DNA of 64,000 nucleotides, taken from NCBI GenBank assembly GCA_020353515.1, contig CP070695.1, positions 4,300,503-4,364,502 of the forward strand. The letters run 5' to 3'. Of this stretch, positions 9,398 to 24,772 are shown piece after piece. The first letter of the stretch is position 1; each line of letters starts with the position of its first letter. Under the pieces are notes generated by a model. That model did not search any database. It was given only the letters and a program-made list of their open reading frames with translations, and was not told the DNA's origin. Both the position numbers and the translations under genes were made by a program. The DNA is from Candidatus Heimdallarchaeota archaeon. Lineage in GTDB: Archaea; Asgardarchaeota; Heimdallarchaeia; Hodarchaeales; Hodarchaeaceae.

Positions 9398-10690
9398 GTG
9401 GCAAATAAATTTAATGGTTTGGTCAGATTCAACCCCGATGGTATCAATTTGACAGCCATGGAAAACGCTGTGGTCAAATTAATATTAATTGGGGATGGAA
9501 TGTCTGGTAAAACCCAGATACTAATAACACTTGCTCAATTATTAATAGAATACCTTCAACAGATCTACTCATTATCCATCAATGAATCGGATTTCGATGA
9601 TCCAGCATTTCGTAGTTGGGCAGAAAGACGGGGTTTTTTTCTACGTTATGGCAACATCAAGTGGGATATTAGAACAATCAGTCTTGATACAGAAACGATA
9701 GGACTCGAGGATTTTGAATATGTCTTTCCCTACGTATGGAATGATACTACATACAAGATCAGACTTATAGGAAATGATGTGGGAGGTCAGAACATCTTCC
9801 ATCATTTTAGGGATGTCTTGGCGAAGATGGCTGGTCCTGATGATAATTTGATTGTTGTTTTCGATAAATCAAGGGAATTATCCTGCTATAACAGCATTGA
9901 ACATATAAAAAGAGTTCTTGGGATAATGACAGCAGAGAATGAATCCACCTTATCCAGGATAGCTTATTGTGGAAATAAGATTGATTTAGAGAAACACATT
10001 CGAGAAGAAGAATGGCGTGAAGGAGCACTCAAATCAATTATGGATAAAATTACTGATATTATGAACCATGGGAGAGGAGAGTATTCCTTTCCATCTTTAA
10101 TGGATATTCAAAAAGAAGAACAATGCGTGAAAGCTGATATCACGAACAATCAGATTACGTTCCCAGATTTAGAAGCGCTAATCTACAATGCTATCAGGGA
10201 GTTTGATAGCAAATATAAAACAGATTTAATGAGCGAGGTCAATACAAAAGCCCTTTGTAGAGAGATTTCAGCTCAGCTTGTCTATAACCAGAATGTCACT
10301 ATCCTTGAAGAAGGAAGCACCCAAGCAGAACAAGTGTGGGAAGATCTTCGTACAGTACTCTACCAAACTAGACCCCTAGCCGTTCAATACTCTGCTAGAG
10401 GTAGAATAAAAAAGGATGATGATTCAGCTCACCTTAGTCAAGTACGAGACAAATGGCGCAAATTTGGCTTGAATTTACCGATTACACCAGAAGATATCAA
10501 ATTTGCCCTTCATAGGACCGCCAACGCAGAGGAACTACTTAAGGAGATGGGAGATCGTTTTGACACCAATGCTTTATCTGGTGATGGTATCCTAAAAATG
10601 TTGGAATCTATAACCCAAGAAACCTTAATCAAACTCACACAACCGATTCAAAAGGAAAAACGAGTGAAACGAGAACTAAAAAGATTTTAA
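9398..10690 (+). CDS. extended Ras/Rab-like GTPase with large insertions (paralog A)
   Basis: Guanine-nucleotide motifs are clear: G1 GDGMSGKT (residues 32-39), G2 TIG with Thr100 in a Rab-like switch I (ETIGLEDF), G3 DVGGQ (127-131) and G4 NKID (193-196). A likely G5, TNAL-SGDG, sits near residue 391. G1 to G2 is about 60 residues instead of about 20. G4 to G5 is about 195 instead of about 30, so the 430-aa protein carries two insertions within one GTPase fold. The basic tail KEKRVKRELKRF may bind membrane or nucleic acid. The start is GTG 9398, nine bases after AAGGAG. It is convergent with the PolB2 gene (stops overlap by 4 bp) and paralogous to the protein at 18429. It should be an active GTPase switch; partners are unknown. 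Confidence 0.85.
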   Translation: MANKFNGLVRFNPDGINLTAMENAVVKLILIGDGMSGKTQILITLAQLLIEYLQQIYSLSINESDFDDPAFRSWAERRGFFLRYGNIKWDIRTISLDTETIGLEDFEYVFPYVWNDTTYKIRLIGNDVGGQNIFHHFRDVLAKMAGPDDNLIVVFDKSRELSCYNSIEHIKRVLGIMTAENESTLSRIAYCGNKIDLEKHIREEEWREGALKSIMDKITDIMNHGRGEYSFPSLMDIQKEEQCVKADITNNQITFPDLEALIYNAIREFDSKYKTDLMSEVNTKALCREISAQLVYNQNVTILEEGSTQAEQVWEDLRTVLYQTRPLAVQYSARGRIKKDDDSAHLSQVRDKWRKFGLNLPITPEDIKFALHRTANAEELLKEMGDRFDTNALSGDGILKMLESITQETLIKLTQPIQKEKRVKRELKRF

Positions 10691-12984
10691 ATATCCTGCA
10701 TCGCACGTAATGGCCAAAACGATTCTAGTGTTGGGTTTTCCTTCCTGAATTCAGGGGGGATTAAATTTTCATAAGCCCTAGTCACCAATTTTTGATATTC
10801 TTCAGCATCGTATTGTTCGTTTCCTTTTAAAAGCTGTTCTGCCTTCACACGCTTCTTGTAGTCCTTTGCATGAACATCTAGGATGAGATAACGGATTTTC
10901 ATCCCAGGTTCAACATTTACCCCTAAAGCAGCTAGCTGTTTAGCTGCTATCGCTTGTCGAGAATTGTTGACATATTCATCAGGAGAACGTGAGGGACGAA
11001 TTGCTATCAATAAGTCTTCTAGAGGAACATTTCCTATTTCCAGTTCCGTGCTACATTCCTTCATGAATTTCTCAGCCCGTTGGCTAGCTACTTGAAATTG
11101 TTCTCTTGATCTAGCTTTGGCTAAGATGTTTAACATATTCATTTGGAGTTTCTTGATAAAAGGAGGACTACTTGATTGGCGGATTTCGATACCACGAATC
11201 CGGAACGTTCCATCTGTTTTCAGGCCATAATACCTGTTTAATACCCCTATCCCAGGTTCATGACGACGGGGCAAGAAGATGATCCAGTGGTAATCGCAGG
11301 CATGTTCAACTGGTAGTTTGACAATATCCGCTACTTCTTGACGTAGCTTACGTACCTTGTCGAGCGGGACTGGTTCCTCCTCGGGATCTTTCACCCAAAC
11401 TGAATCTACTATGCCAGCTACAACCTCCAGCCCGTAACGCGAGGCGATTTGCTGAGTGAGAGTTAATCCATGCCTACTGTACGCTGAAATCGCTTCATGT
11501 GATTCAATACGTCCAAAGCGTGCGTTTCGATAACCTGTATATCCAAAACAAGTCACTAAAAGCCATTTAAGCACTTTCTGTCGTCGATCATAATCTGGAT
11601 GAACGTTTCGCTTTGCTTTATAATATTGACGTCGTCGTAGGATGTTTTTAAGTGAAAGACTGATGATACCAAGTCTTTTCGTGCAAACATGGTAATTGGT
11701 AAGAGGTACAAGCTGCCTTTTGTCGTTCGTACAACACGTACAGTTAACAGTTTCAGGAGAAACATTCCTATGAACCATAATATTCGGGTACATTGACAGA
11801 AAATCGAGTTCAACCACATTTGTGTGGAATCCAACCCAGGGGGAAAACACAAGCCCTCCCACATCGGTTTCCATGGTCCAAGCAGGACGGAATGACTCTG
11901 GATCCGCCTTCCTCGCGGGAATTAGTATGTCTCGGTAATAAGCGGTTCGCATCTGTACGGCGGACAAAGTAGTCCCTATGGTACCACGAGCGATTCTTTG
12001 CGGGTCACTACATCCTAATCGCACTAATTCATGAATACCTGCTATATTTCCGTCTTTCCACATAAAACTATTTCCCACGTCATAGTGGTGACGACCCCCA
12101 TCAAAGTAAACGCCGTGCTGTGAGTAAAATATTCTTCCATAAGACATGTAGCTGTGACCCCGACTCCTTTCATCCTTCTGTCGCACATAGCTTCTCAAGG
12201 GACGGAAGCCGCGACCAATACGCAGATGCCCCTCCCCAACCCGTGTAGAACGCTCTGCGATAATCGGAACGAAAGTATCCCCTCCTCGTGTAAATAGGAG
12301 ATCAGGATTAACTTGTTGGACATATCGAATGCTGTTACGTATGATTTCTGCTTCTGTCTGTTCTTCGAAGACAATTGGTTCTTCTTGGTCAATTACTGAT
12401 CTCCGTATCAAGATCTTTGTTATTTTTCCCCGAGAGAGGCTTGAGTCTTCGAAGAAGGGTTGGAACCAGAGCACACGAAATGGTACAGGTTGATAATCCA
12501 TTTGAGTATAGGACTCGAGCAGCTGCCAGTTCTTCAACTGACCGTTGCTGATATCGATCTTTGCATAAGCGTAAGGGAAAAGTTCAGTCTGAAAGCAAAA
12601 CTGTTGCCACAAGCTCAGATCTGCATTGTGGAGATACTCGCCCCAGTACTTTCGTAAGTCTTCATAGGTAGCTCGGATTCGACGAGGGTTGACTCGAATA
12701 CAAAACACAGATGACGGTTTTTGGTTGTGGATAGAAAGGTACTTCGACCTTTTTTCTATTCTTTCAATGTGGGGATGACTCAACAATTGTTTTTCGATGT
12801 AAGGATCAGTCTTCGCGAGGAAAAATTCGGCTGTGAGGGGATAAAAGGCTTGAATTGCCTTCTTCTTAGTGATCCAATGCGTAGTGACCCCCCAATCGGC
12901 AGCTTCGACTTCATGGAGCCATGCGCGGATCCGAGACATGTTAACAGTTCCAATAAGTTGTTTAAGTCTCCCCCTTGTGATCAC
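10687..12984 (-). CDS. PolB2-type B-family DNA polymerase with altered motif C
   Basis: Motif A is ELDFLSMYPNI (about residue 391), keeping the catalytic Asp. Motif B is KWLLVTCFGY followed by a conserved YRNARFG (about 471). Motif C reads AGIVDSVWV (about 523), so the first Asp of the usual DTD is Ile and only one Asp remains. Loss of canonical catalytic residues is known for the archaeal PolB2 family; Sulfolobus Dpo2 of this family is reported to act in error-prone damage tolerance. No clear 3'-5' exonuclease motifs were seen in the N-terminal part. It is the last gene of an operon after the small coiled-coil gene and the inactivated RadA-like gene. The GTG start at 12984 overlaps the upstream gene by 23 bp; ATG 12939 is an alternative. 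The region looks visibly richer in G+C than the flanking genes. Confidence 0.85.
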   Translation of the reverse strand: MITRGRLKQLIGTVNMSRIRAWLHEVEAADWGVTTHWITKKKAIQAFYPLTAEFFLAKTDPYIEKQLLSHPHIERIEKRSKYLSIHNQKPSSVFCIRVNPRRIRATYEDLRKYWGEYLHNADLSLWQQFCFQTELFPYAYAKIDISNGQLKNWQLLESYTQMDYQPVPFRVLWFQPFFEDSSLSRGKITKILIRRSVIDQEEPIVFEEQTEAEIIRNSIRYVQQVNPDLLFTRGGDTFVPIIAERSTRVGEGHLRIGRGFRPLRSYVRQKDERSRGHSYMSYGRIFYSQHGVYFDGGRHHYDVGNSFMWKDGNIAGIHELVRLGCSDPQRIARGTIGTTLSAVQMRTAYYRDILIPARKADPESFRPAWTMETDVGGLVFSPWVGFHTNVVELDFLSMYPNIMVHRNVSPETVNCTCCTNDKRQLVPLTNYHVCTKRLGIISLSLKNILRRRQYYKAKRNVHPDYDRRQKVLKWLLVTCFGYTGYRNARFGRIESHEAISAYSRHGLTLTQQIASRYGLEVVAGIVDSVWVKDPEEEPVPLDKVRKLRQEVADIVKLPVEHACDYHWIIFLPRRHEPGIGVLNRYYGLKTDGTFRIRGIEIRQSSSPPFIKKLQMNMLNILAKARSREQFQVASQRAEKFMKECSTELEIGNVPLEDLLIAIRPSRSPDEYVNNSRQAIAAKQLAALGVNVEPGMKIRYLILDVHAKDYKKRVKAEQLLKGNEQYDAEEYQKLVTRAYENLIPPEFRKENPTLESFWPLRAMQDI

Positions 12985-13267
12985 TGCCTGTATTCTGCAG
13001 TCTCTTCTTTAACCTGGCTAGTTCGGCTTTCAATTTTTGAATTTCGGAGTGTTGTCCTATTAACATTGACATCACGACATTATCAAAGATTATGGGGCGT
13101 GTATTTGCAGACGCAGCATCTGCTAGTTGGAAGGCATATAGCCAAAGATCTGTGAAACTGGTTCGATATGGTTCACGTAAACGGTTTGCGTAATGTACCA
13201 GCCAGAGAGCACGCTCTTTTTCAAGCATTCTACGGTAAGATGGTAAAGTTCTGCCCATAAGAATCAC
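12962..13267 (-). CDS. small helical protein of the PolB2 operon
   Basis: This protein of about 100 aa has an N-terminal MGRTLPSYR block, a conserved-looking centre (NTRPIIFDNVVMSMLIGQ) and a C-terminal coiled coil of about 25 residues (HSEIQKLKAELARLKKRL). Small archaeal proteins beginning MGRT-[IL]-PS are, as far as I recall, a widespread uncharacterised family, which argues for starting at ATG 13258 rather than the GTG at 13267. The GTG overlaps the preceding stop (GTGA). The gene sits between the RadA-like and polymerase genes with overlaps on both sides, so the three are surely co-translated. It is likely an adaptor bridging the other two; that role is inferred. Confidence 0.75.
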   Translation of the reverse strand: MILMGRTLPSYRRMLEKERALWLVHYANRLREPYRTSFTDLWLYAFQLADAASANTRPIIFDNVVMSMLIGQHSEIQKLKAELARLKKRLQNTGSDHKGET

Positions 13268-14073
13268 CAGAATTGAGTTAAGGGTACTTGATGCTGTTCT
13301 TCCCTTTCTGCTGTGTGCGAGAGTTTTATCTGAACTACTGGCCCACCTTTTTGGACAGTAAAGAGAAGTGTGTAGTTCTGTCGATTACTGTCAGGCGTTA
13401 CTGCCACTCGAATGACATCAGTAGCCGAATGCGAAAGAAACGTACCTCCAAGCGCTTTGTGCTTTGAGTGAGGCGCATTTTCTGCAGTTGTTATTCCTAC
13501 CAAGTCATATTGCAAACTAAGGCTCTTCAACTTCCCCACTGCCTGTGTCAGCTCGAGAATGGAGGATGTTGACGTTAACTTGTCGTATTCTAGATACTGG
13601 AGCGCTTCTTTTGATAGATAAAGGGACGAAATCTGAGGTACTAAAACAATACGAATACGGGGGTTCGTATCAATCAGTCGAGGAAGTTTCGTGTAAAGAA
13701 TTTCGGTCATTTGATGATAATTAAACGCACGTGATAGTTGAATCCTATCGAGTATTCCCAGTGGATCCAAGCCATGCTTTCTTGCTTCAAGTGAGATCTC
13801 GAAGTATGGAAATAGATTCGCTCCATCAACAAAGGCAAGATCAACACTAGGGTTGCTTATCAGCAGCGATACCGTGAGCTGAGTAATGAAAGCACGTAGG
13901 ATTGAGTTTGGCAAATCTCCCTGAATCAAAGCCAAACTGCCTGGATATAGCACGAATGCGTCATCTAGGTGCGCCATACCAAGTCGAAGGCATCGTTGCA
14001 GCTGCTGATGTCGTACATCAGCTGAAACAAAATTGTCGGGAAGGTCTTCATGATTCCGATAATCTTGGATCAT
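13264..14073 (-). CDS. inactivated RadA/RecA-like protein
   Basis: The 269-aa protein follows the RadA core in order but lacks its ATPase residues. Where RadA has a Walker A loop after GS-x-TEI, this has GSLALIQGDLPNSIL (residues 45-59), without GKT. Residues 101-122 (GLDP-x-GILDRI followed by LSRAFNYHQM) match the RadA segment GLDP..VLDNI..ARAFN..HQ. The Walker B position is IVLVPQISSLY (142-152), with Pro in place of the Asp. Residues GGTFLSHSATDVIRV match RadA GG..LAHSAT. It should therefore keep the fold but not hydrolyse ATP. As first gene of the PolB2 operon it probably guides the polymerase to lesions or filaments, much as ImuA does in bacterial mutasomes; that is inference. Confidence 0.8.
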   Translation of the reverse strand: MIQDYRNHEDLPDNFVSADVRHQQLQRCLRLGMAHLDDAFVLYPGSLALIQGDLPNSILRAFITQLTVSLLISNPSVDLAFVDGANLFPYFEISLEARKHGLDPLGILDRIQLSRAFNYHQMTEILYTKLPRLIDTNPRIRIVLVPQISSLYLSKEALQYLEYDKLTSTSSILELTQAVGKLKSLSLQYDLVGITTAENAPHSKHKALGGTFLSHSATDVIRVAVTPDSNRQNYTLLFTVQKGGPVVQIKLSHTAEREEQHQVPLTQFW

Positions 14074-14519
14074 CCTTAGTCACATAAAGGTATACATTCC
14101 CCTTCCTCAAATCCACGACACAGTCTGAGAGATATCTGAAAAAGACAAAAATGAATTGAAGTGCCCGATTGAGGAATCAAACCTATTTGTTCGCTTGACT
14201 AGAATGTAATTACGACCCTCCAGTAACAGAAATACCATCTAAGACTGAGAGAATTCTTGAAATAGGGAGAGATTACTTTTTTATTCTTATGTTCAGCGCC
14301 CTATATCAAATTTTTTATGAATTAATTGTGAAAATTTGATTTTGTCGGTAATAGAATACAATGTTTTTTTAAGGAAGTATGAGCTCTTTAGATAAATAGG
14401 TTTAACTAACAAAGTCATCATTTCTTCAGACAATGAAAATTTTCGTAATCAGCCTCTTTTAATATTGAAGTTTCAAGAACAACAATCAGGACTTGTAATA
14501 CTGCAGGAGAACACCTCAA
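14074..14519. other. divergent promoter region of PolB2 operon and 1302-aa gene
   Basis: No gene is seen in these 446 bp. The region separates the minus-strand RadA-like/PolB2 operon from the plus-strand 1302-aa gene, so it must carry both promoters. It contains a perfect 10-bp inverted repeat (14305-14340) and, at its right end, the ribosome site CAGGAGA (14504-14510) for the TTG start at 14520. Confidence 0.5.
14305..14340. repeat. inverted repeat in the divergent intergenic region
   Basis: ATCAAATTTT (14305-14314) and AAAATTTGAT (14331-14340) are exact reverse complements with a 16-bp spacer. The arms are AT-rich, so chance is possible. The position between divergent operons would suit a shared operator. 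About 180 bp separate it from the downstream start codon. Confidence 0.4.
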
Positions 14520-23782: not shown

Positions 23783-24772
23783 ATGGCTACAAATATCTTA
23801 ATTGGGACGAGTGGATTCGGATACTCAGATTGGCAAGCACGGCTTGAAAAAACTCGACTTCCATTTTATCCACCGAATCTGGGCCCTCAATTTCGCTTAT
23901 CCTTTTATGCAGAAGTTTTTCCAACGGTGGAAATTAATACTACATTTTACCATTTTCCTCGAGCTGCTGTTGTAAATAAATGGGGAAAAAACGTTCCTAA
24001 TGATTTTATTTTTTCCTATAAGATTCCTCGTCATATTACACATCAAAAAAAGCTCGATTTTAACCAAGGTTATTGGGAAGAACTCCGACCATTTATAGAT
24101 ACCATGGAGGGGGGATTAGGAAAAAAAGCAGGCCCAGCATTACTCCAACTACCTCCTAAGTTTTCTGCTGATAATTTTAAGAGACTAGAGATTTTTCTAA
24201 AATATTGGCCGAGTAACATCAATCTAGCTGTAGAATTCCGTCATATCTCTTGGGTAGAACATAAACGACTTGAACAGACACTTGAACTCTTATCACAATA
24301 CAATGCTGCTTACTGTATTGTAGATGAACCATTATTACCTCCAATTATTCCAGTGACTGCAGATTTTACTTATATTAGGTTTCATGGTCATGGCCTTAAG
24401 CCTTGGTACAATTATCAGTATTCTCTTGAAGAATTAACTCCATGGGCATCACGAATACAATCTTTAGCCAATAATAAAGGATTAAAAGAAGTTTTTACAT
24501 ATTTCAATAATCACCCGCATGGTCATGCTCCTGCTAATGCCCGACAATTAGCTATTCTCCTAAAAATTCCATTAAAAAGACCAGAAGAAGTAAAAATGGT
24601 CGAGGTCAGGAAACGGGCTGGAGCTGCTCCTCAACATTCATTAGAAAGCTTTTTAGACATTTCTCCTGTAGAATTAAGTGATTATATTCGTTTCTGCTCC
24701 AATTGTGGTGAAATGATTCTCAAAGATGACAATTTCTGTGAGAACTGTGGCCATCATCAGGTAAGAGAGTGA
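23783..24772 (+). CDS. DUF72 (YecE-like) TIM-barrel protein with C-terminal zinc ribbon
   Basis: The protein opens with ILIGTSGFGYSDW and continues with FYAEVFPTVEINTTFY, both hallmarks of the DUF72 family. It then has AVEFRHISW and YIRFHG (barrel strands) and YFNNHPHGHAPANA near the end of the barrel. The molecular role of DUF72 proteins is not settled. Beyond the usual domain, residues about 305-329 form a double-CxxC zinc ribbon (CSNCG and CENCG), which is not part of typical DUF72 proteins. Similar ribbons end other proteins in this window. ATG 23783 gives a full-length N-terminus. Confidence 0.88.
   Translation: MATNILIGTSGFGYSDWQARLEKTRLPFYPPNLGPQFRLSFYAEVFPTVEINTTFYHFPRAAVVNKWGKNVPNDFIFSYKIPRHITHQKKLDFNQGYWEELRPFIDTMEGGLGKKAGPALLQLPPKFSADNFKRLEIFLKYWPSNINLAVEFRHISWVEHKRLEQTLELLSQYNAAYCIVDEPLLPPIIPVTADFTYIRFHGHGLKPWYNYQYSLEELTPWASRIQSLANNKGLKEVFTYFNNHPHGHAPANARQLAILLKIPLKRPEEVKMVEVRKRAGAAPQHSLESFLDISPVELSDYIRFCSNCGEMILKDDNFCENCGHHQVRE

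Follow-up and report, generated by a model that had tools for sequence, protein, structure and literature searches.

The minus strand of the window, a 64,000-nucleotide stretch of a Candidatus Heimdallarchaeota genome assembled as one 4.94-Mb contig, carries an operon that we read with considerable confidence as encoding a PolB2 mutasome, and which displays the mutasome hallmarks tested except the D(K/R) motif of the polymerase. The homology, motifs, folds and co-occurrence described below were observed in this analysis, as was an element upstream of the operon. The mutasome itself, consisting of an inactivated RadA (iRadA), PPB2 (arCOG07300) and PolB2 (Dpo2), was known beforehand: the association of PolB2 with arCOG07300 and an inactivated RadA was reported by Makarova 2014 (PMC4104785), a Thorarchaeota PolB2 was included in a 2022 alignment (PMC8764526), and the three-protein complex was modelled and named PolB2 mutasome by Timinskas 2025 (PMC11791011). 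What is new here, and the part of the finding worth following, is the upstream element, which raises the plausible possibility of a shared damage regulon.

The iRadA-PPB2-PolB2 operon

An earlier note on this DNA had reported three overlapping genes that resemble the PolB2/Dpo2 operon and include a RadA deprived of its active-site residues. All three open reading frames are present on the minus strand where it had placed them, in the transcription order iRadA (13264..14073, 269 aa), PPB2 (12962..13258, 98 aa, beginning MGRTLPSYRR) and polB2 (10687..12939), and their motifs and folds show this identification to be right. To set the starts we used relatives of the same genus, in which the PPB2 start is kept at the ATG of MGRT (13258) and the PolB2 start at the ATG at 12939, yielding a polymerase of 750 aa in place of the 765 aa obtained from the GTG at 12984 chosen by the ORF caller. 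The genes are indeed adjacent, but the overlaps need upstream GTG starts and are not required, because the conserved starts sit downstream of the caller's GTG codons, with 5 nt separating the iRadA stop from PPB2 and 22 nt separating the PPB2 stop from polB2. The Shine-Dalgarno-like hexamer GGTGAT lies directly 5' of the PPB2 ATG and contains the TGA of iRadA, an overlap that would fit translational coupling of the two genes.

The polymerase belongs to family B (Pfam DNA_pol_B, E 6e-25), and its AlphaFold model (pLDDT 86) matched archaeal family B polymerases using Foldseek (E 1e-37); the nearest named record is the counterpart from Candidatus Heimdallarchaeota archaeon bin272 (CP070760.1), with 82% identity. 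A residue-by-residue alignment with KOD polymerase placed GIVDS of PolB2 over SDTDG, bearing out the claim that I510-V511-D512 (11404..11412, minus strand) replaces DTD at motif C; a shifted alignment restoring DTD was ruled out, because this match runs through the motif without a gap. In an alignment of 34 relatives, motif C of the archaeal proteins reads IVDS throughout except for one IIDS, with Ile always first, and the bacterial and Leptospira phage proteins show changes of a related kind. The motif A Asp, the motif B Lys and the second motif C Asp do not vary in any aligned sequence, the motif B Asn/Tyr is altered, and the exonuclease domain leaves only a Pfam trace (0.01, residues 199-251), a weak match scored at the domain level. 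Just before the palm we found a hydrophobic-x-x-Ala motif, M330-R-T-A333, whose Ala333 is nearly invariant and whose position is taken by FYNA in Loki relatives. At the D(K/R) motif, also before the palm, D359 is kept and is followed by V in all aligned members of the genus, as against K or R in all other aligned PolB2; D(K/R), a feature described as conserved though not as defining the family, is said to touch PPB2, and the PolB2-PPB2 contact may therefore differ in this genus. LAGLIDADG inteins split PolB2 exactly at motif B (KWLLVT/C...HN/CFGY) in three Asgard genomes, G041, G044 and G067 (L049:969-4826, L050:51-2885 and L051:1013-4807), two of them in the window's genus.

iRadA gave a marginal match to Pfam Rad51 (E 1e-3), and its structure model (pLDDT 81) matched RAD51, Dmc1 and RadA at E 2.6e-17, upholding the proposed kinship with RecA/RadA. 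When aligned to the RadA paralogs of the same genome, the protein was found to lack the Walker A Lys/Thr (GKT) and the Walker B Asp, as claimed, and thus has a RadA/Rad51 fold devoid of the ATPase residues. The N-terminal domain is missing as well (269 aa, no HhH domain match in Pfam). Among the invariant positions are R115, F117 and Q121, in the stretch SRAFNxHQ (SRAFNYHQ in the window); the matching residues of RAD51 belong to the pocket for the FxxA hook. The C-terminus, QVPLTQFW (13267..13290, minus strand), fits the pattern QxxLxxFF of a PCNA-binding (PIP) motif, a clamp-binding hallmark that some mutasomes carry on iRadA or PolB2, and most Asgard iRadA carry similar C-terminal motifs. 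The window genome encodes five RadA-type proteins in total and four Orc1/Cdc6, at genome positions 2720361, 3819650, 2620489 and 1488982; another Orc1/Cdc6 gene has a second radA paralog nearby (G000:C1:1486193-1489104), and the RadA-like protein at C1:1134113 was discarded as a second iRadA because its Walker A is intact (GDSGVGKT).

PPB2 is a small helical protein with a coiled-coil C-terminus, for which a search of solved structures returned no significant match. In an alignment of 17 PPB2 sequences, G2, R3 and L27 are invariant, and the window protein has the hallmark MGRT start, which forms the N-terminal arm (13247..13258, minus strand) to which a role was given in the published model (PMC11791011).

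Distribution and relation to known systems

Using a cut-off below 1e-40 for PolB2, we detected PolB2 in 139 and PPB2 in 137 of 227 Asgard genomes, both being present in 130, with PolB2 only in 9 genomes and PPB2 only in 7 (Fisher p 3e-42, inflated because Asgard genomes share ancestry). The earlier note had presented the Asgard set as extending the case for an archaeal translesion complex. A translesion complex is indeed the best reading, but the Asgard find is no special extension, being already published and matched by these 130 genomes. The two genes coexist even when apart: in G081 (L012/L052) and G067 (L051), PolB2 has no adjoining iRadA and PPB2, and PPB2 sits on the same contig at a distance of 10-22 kb, which shows that the set can be split. 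The whole iRadA-PPB2-PolB2 operon also occurs in Leptospira phages (L044:3003-6259, KF114879.1; L045:2231-5283, KF114878.1), where the annotation lists iRadA and PPB2 as hypothetical proteins; a PolB2 search of viral contigs gave no match.

In a tree built without a distant outgroup, Asgard PolB2 form one group beside TACK (SH-aLRT 93, not decisive), within which the window's genus is a long branch. A separate origin for the PolB2 of this genus, as seen in a tree with a distant outgroup, did not hold up after removal of the outgroup and a single long branch. Within the genus the operon is present in 8 of 12 genomes, the search giving no PolB2 match in the other four.

Compared with the published PolB2 mutasome (PMC11791011, PMC4104785), the window operon has the same gene order, MGRT arm, inactive RadA core, motif C Ile and PIP motif on iRadA, and apparently a degenerate exonuclease region; this genus differs in reading DV at D(K/R), in its divergent branch and in the previously undescribed upstream element. 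With S. islandicus Dpo2 (PMC8764526, PMC7390963) it shares family B membership, a similar motif C (IID there, IVD here) and, as it appears, the lack of proofreading activity, whereas activity and damage induction were shown there and would extend to Asgard PolB2 by analogy. The parallel drawn by the earlier note to the bacterial ImuA-ImuB-DnaE2 set holds as analogy and not as kinship, because the polymerases of that set (families Y and C) are unrelated to family B. Like E. coli Pol V, which is the published parallel of the PolB2 mutasome, it combines an error-prone polymerase with a RecA-family partner; both differ from the mutasome in having polymerases of families C and Y and other small subunits. 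C-family DnaE2 and Y-family-like ImuB, the members of the bacterial set, have no equivalent in the window operon, in which PPB2 lacks a Y-family match and PolB2 is of family B.

Two further readings of the operon have to be weighed against a working mutasome. One, proposed by Makarova 2014 with a mention of nearby orc genes (PMC4104785), is that PolB2 is catalytically dead and that the trio serves stalled forks or the initiation of replication as a structural or regulatory assembly. It draws on the replacement of the first metal-binding Asp of motif C by Ile, the altered motif B and the mere trace of an exonuclease, but is hard to reconcile with S. islandicus Dpo2: this protein, with IID at motif C (PMC11791011), is an active extender polymerase devoid of exonuclease activity (PMC8764526), and damage-induced mutagenesis in that organism stems from it (PMC7390963). 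Because this IID-bearing enzyme is active, the motif C change is a family norm and no proof of a dead enzyme; the invariance of the motif A Asp, the motif B Lys and the second motif C Asp also argues for catalysis, and we regard a dead polymerase as improbable. That the operon is a decaying remnant of a horizontal acquisition appears more improbable still: its patchy presence in the genus and the long branch in the PolB2 tree would agree with decay, but the three frames are intact and their motifs conserved at 64-82% identity across the genus, and Asgard PolB2 group together.

Two other loci were recorded. L055:3106-7404 (G000:C1 about 4569000-4573400) encodes a family B polymerase of 1432 aa whose exonuclease match is intact and whose polymerase match is only partial. 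About 10 kb separate the operon from a DUF72 gene (window 23783-24772), and a DUF72-like protein seems to be encoded upstream of the operon in G048; DUF72 is reported to be enriched near polB2 (PMC11791011).

An upstream element and a candidate regulon

All 8 operon-bearing genomes of the genus have a 36-nt element, containing tandem ATTTTC hexamers, 5' of the operon. In seven of these genomes a common block some 75 nt ahead of the start consists of two ATTTTC nine bp apart followed by TCTCTGACT, and the best 12-mer accumulated 6 mismatches in total over the seven upstream sequences, against at least 17 in 40 shuffles. The window copy, TCATTTTTGTCTTTTTCAGATATCTCTC..., lies at 14120..14154 (minus strand), 46 nt 5' of the iRadA ATG, and is a degenerate tandem hexamer: both hexamers are altered and the match to ANTTTC is lost, with ATTTTC found 5' of polB2 and beside orc1 elsewhere in the genus. 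The exact pattern ATTTTCNTCATTTTC gave 22 matches in 12 genomes, as compared with 2 for the reversed control. The intergenic matches lie 5' of the mutasome operon, 5' of a gene for a small four-Cys protein and beside radA, and several of the remaining ones fall inside genes. A first regulon pattern, ATTTTC plus TCTCTGAC, was discarded, as it stayed at control level outside the operon itself. The best element copies belong to the four-Cys gene (L158:1198-1422 minus, G000:C1 about 3155100) and its relatives; it encodes a protein of 72-92 aa with four invariant Cys (FCELDCxW...C...C) and no match in Pfam, and is convergent with an ERCC4/XPF gene.

We then used two sequence models. Model R1, trained on mutasome and radA sites, detected outside its training set the mutasome site of G044, the small gene in G042, G045 and G047, and the radA regions of G042, G043, G044, G045 and G051. 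The Orc1/Cdc6 gene is divergent on the far side of the radA site in G042, G044 and G045, and an additional element copy stands 5' of orc1/cdc6 in G051. With a threshold of E <= 0.001, the window genome has exactly three sites, at the small gene, radA and the mutasome, orc1/cdc6 being about 5 kb from the radA site. The same threshold recovered the element in 12 of 12 genomes of the genus, where its sites are related by descent, and in none of 44 other genomes of the class; 52 other PolB2-bearing loci held no convincing copy. Model R2, built from small-gene sites alone and with no mutasome sites, scored the window genome's radA site at 1.8e-7 and, at 2e-5 to 1.2e-4, the mutasome sites of G044, G046 and G049. 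Its sole match in the 64-kb window was the mutasome promoter (14127-14154, E 2e-4), and genome-wide this degenerate copy came fourth in rank (E 0.016).

Sulfolobus Orc1-2 binds ANTTTC in the promoter of its own gene and switches on the synthesis of Dpo2 (PMC9738581). ATTTTC fits ANTTTC and likewise occurs beside orc1/cdc6 and before polB2, whereas the genus differs in having hexamers at 9-bp spacing with a TCTCTCT tail, a candidate site as judged from its letters. The ATTTTC pairs 5' of polB2 and beside orc1/cdc6 would thus fit the Sulfolobus logic, short as the hexamer is. The best solved relatives of the radA-linked Orc1/Cdc6 are Cdc6 1fnn and Orc1-1 2qby_A. We propose tentatively, and at somewhat less than even odds, that in this genus the tandem element jointly controls the PolB2 mutasome, radA with orc1/cdc6 and the four-Cys gene by xpf, under an Orc1/Cdc6-type regulator as in Sulfolobus.

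The element might also be a general promoter or initiator type of the genus, or an Orc1/Cdc6 origin recognition box, and not a damage site, a serious possibility that we hold a little short of an even chance. One site is flanked by radA and orc1/cdc6, a frequent setting of archaeal origins, and a replication origin beside these genes is possible; no ORB-like repeat cluster, however, was found at the radA-orc1 sites. The second half of the element, TCATTTTCNNTGATCTCTCTCT, is also seen, with lower scores, 5' of TnpB-like genes and of others that have no repair role, and this half may therefore be a broader promoter part. Against the element as a whole having such a general role, the three sites of the window genome are all beside repair genes, and the mutasome and small-protein sites are close 5' of start codons. 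The element copies 5' of TnpB-like (IS605 OrfB) genes, often consisting of the second half, were identified by eye in G042, G047 and G048 (L196, L239, L240, L244, L245, L250, L251).

Proposed mechanism and significance

In the mutasome as we propose it, PolB2, a family B polymerase apparently without a proofreading active site, would extend distorted primer ends beyond lesions. iRadA would have lost ATP binding and hydrolysis and kept the groove for the hydrophobic-x-x-Ala hook of RadA/Rad51 subunits, to which PolB2 would offer M330-R-T-A333; the aligned pocket residues and the hook appear to agree with the published model, which has PolB2 hold iRadA the way RadA subunits hold each other (PMC11791011). 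A PPB2 trimer would put the MGRT arm between PolB2 and iRadA near DNA, and QVPLTQFW would dock the complex onto PCNA. Joint switch-on after DNA damage is plausible because the operon promoter shares its element with radA, orc1/cdc6 and the Cys-protein gene, and the regulator may be of the Orc1/Cdc6 family, as in Sulfolobus. Polymerase activity and damage induction were shown in other archaea (PMC8764526, PMC7390963), where the complex was modelled (PMC11791011); by analogy, the window's organism would have both, together with the complex, a predicted heteropentamer, and its regulator.

The window operon itself is one more member of a described translesion system, whose broad distribution among Asgard genomes points to an early presence in the phylum. 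A narrow literature search found no earlier report of an Asgard DNA-damage regulon. Should the element be a damage box, it would give Asgard archaea, the closest lineage to eukaryotes, a candidate DNA-damage regulon with named likely members, including the small Cys protein, that make it directly testable. If true, this regulon would suggest an archaeal counterpart of SOS common to TACK and Asgard archaea.
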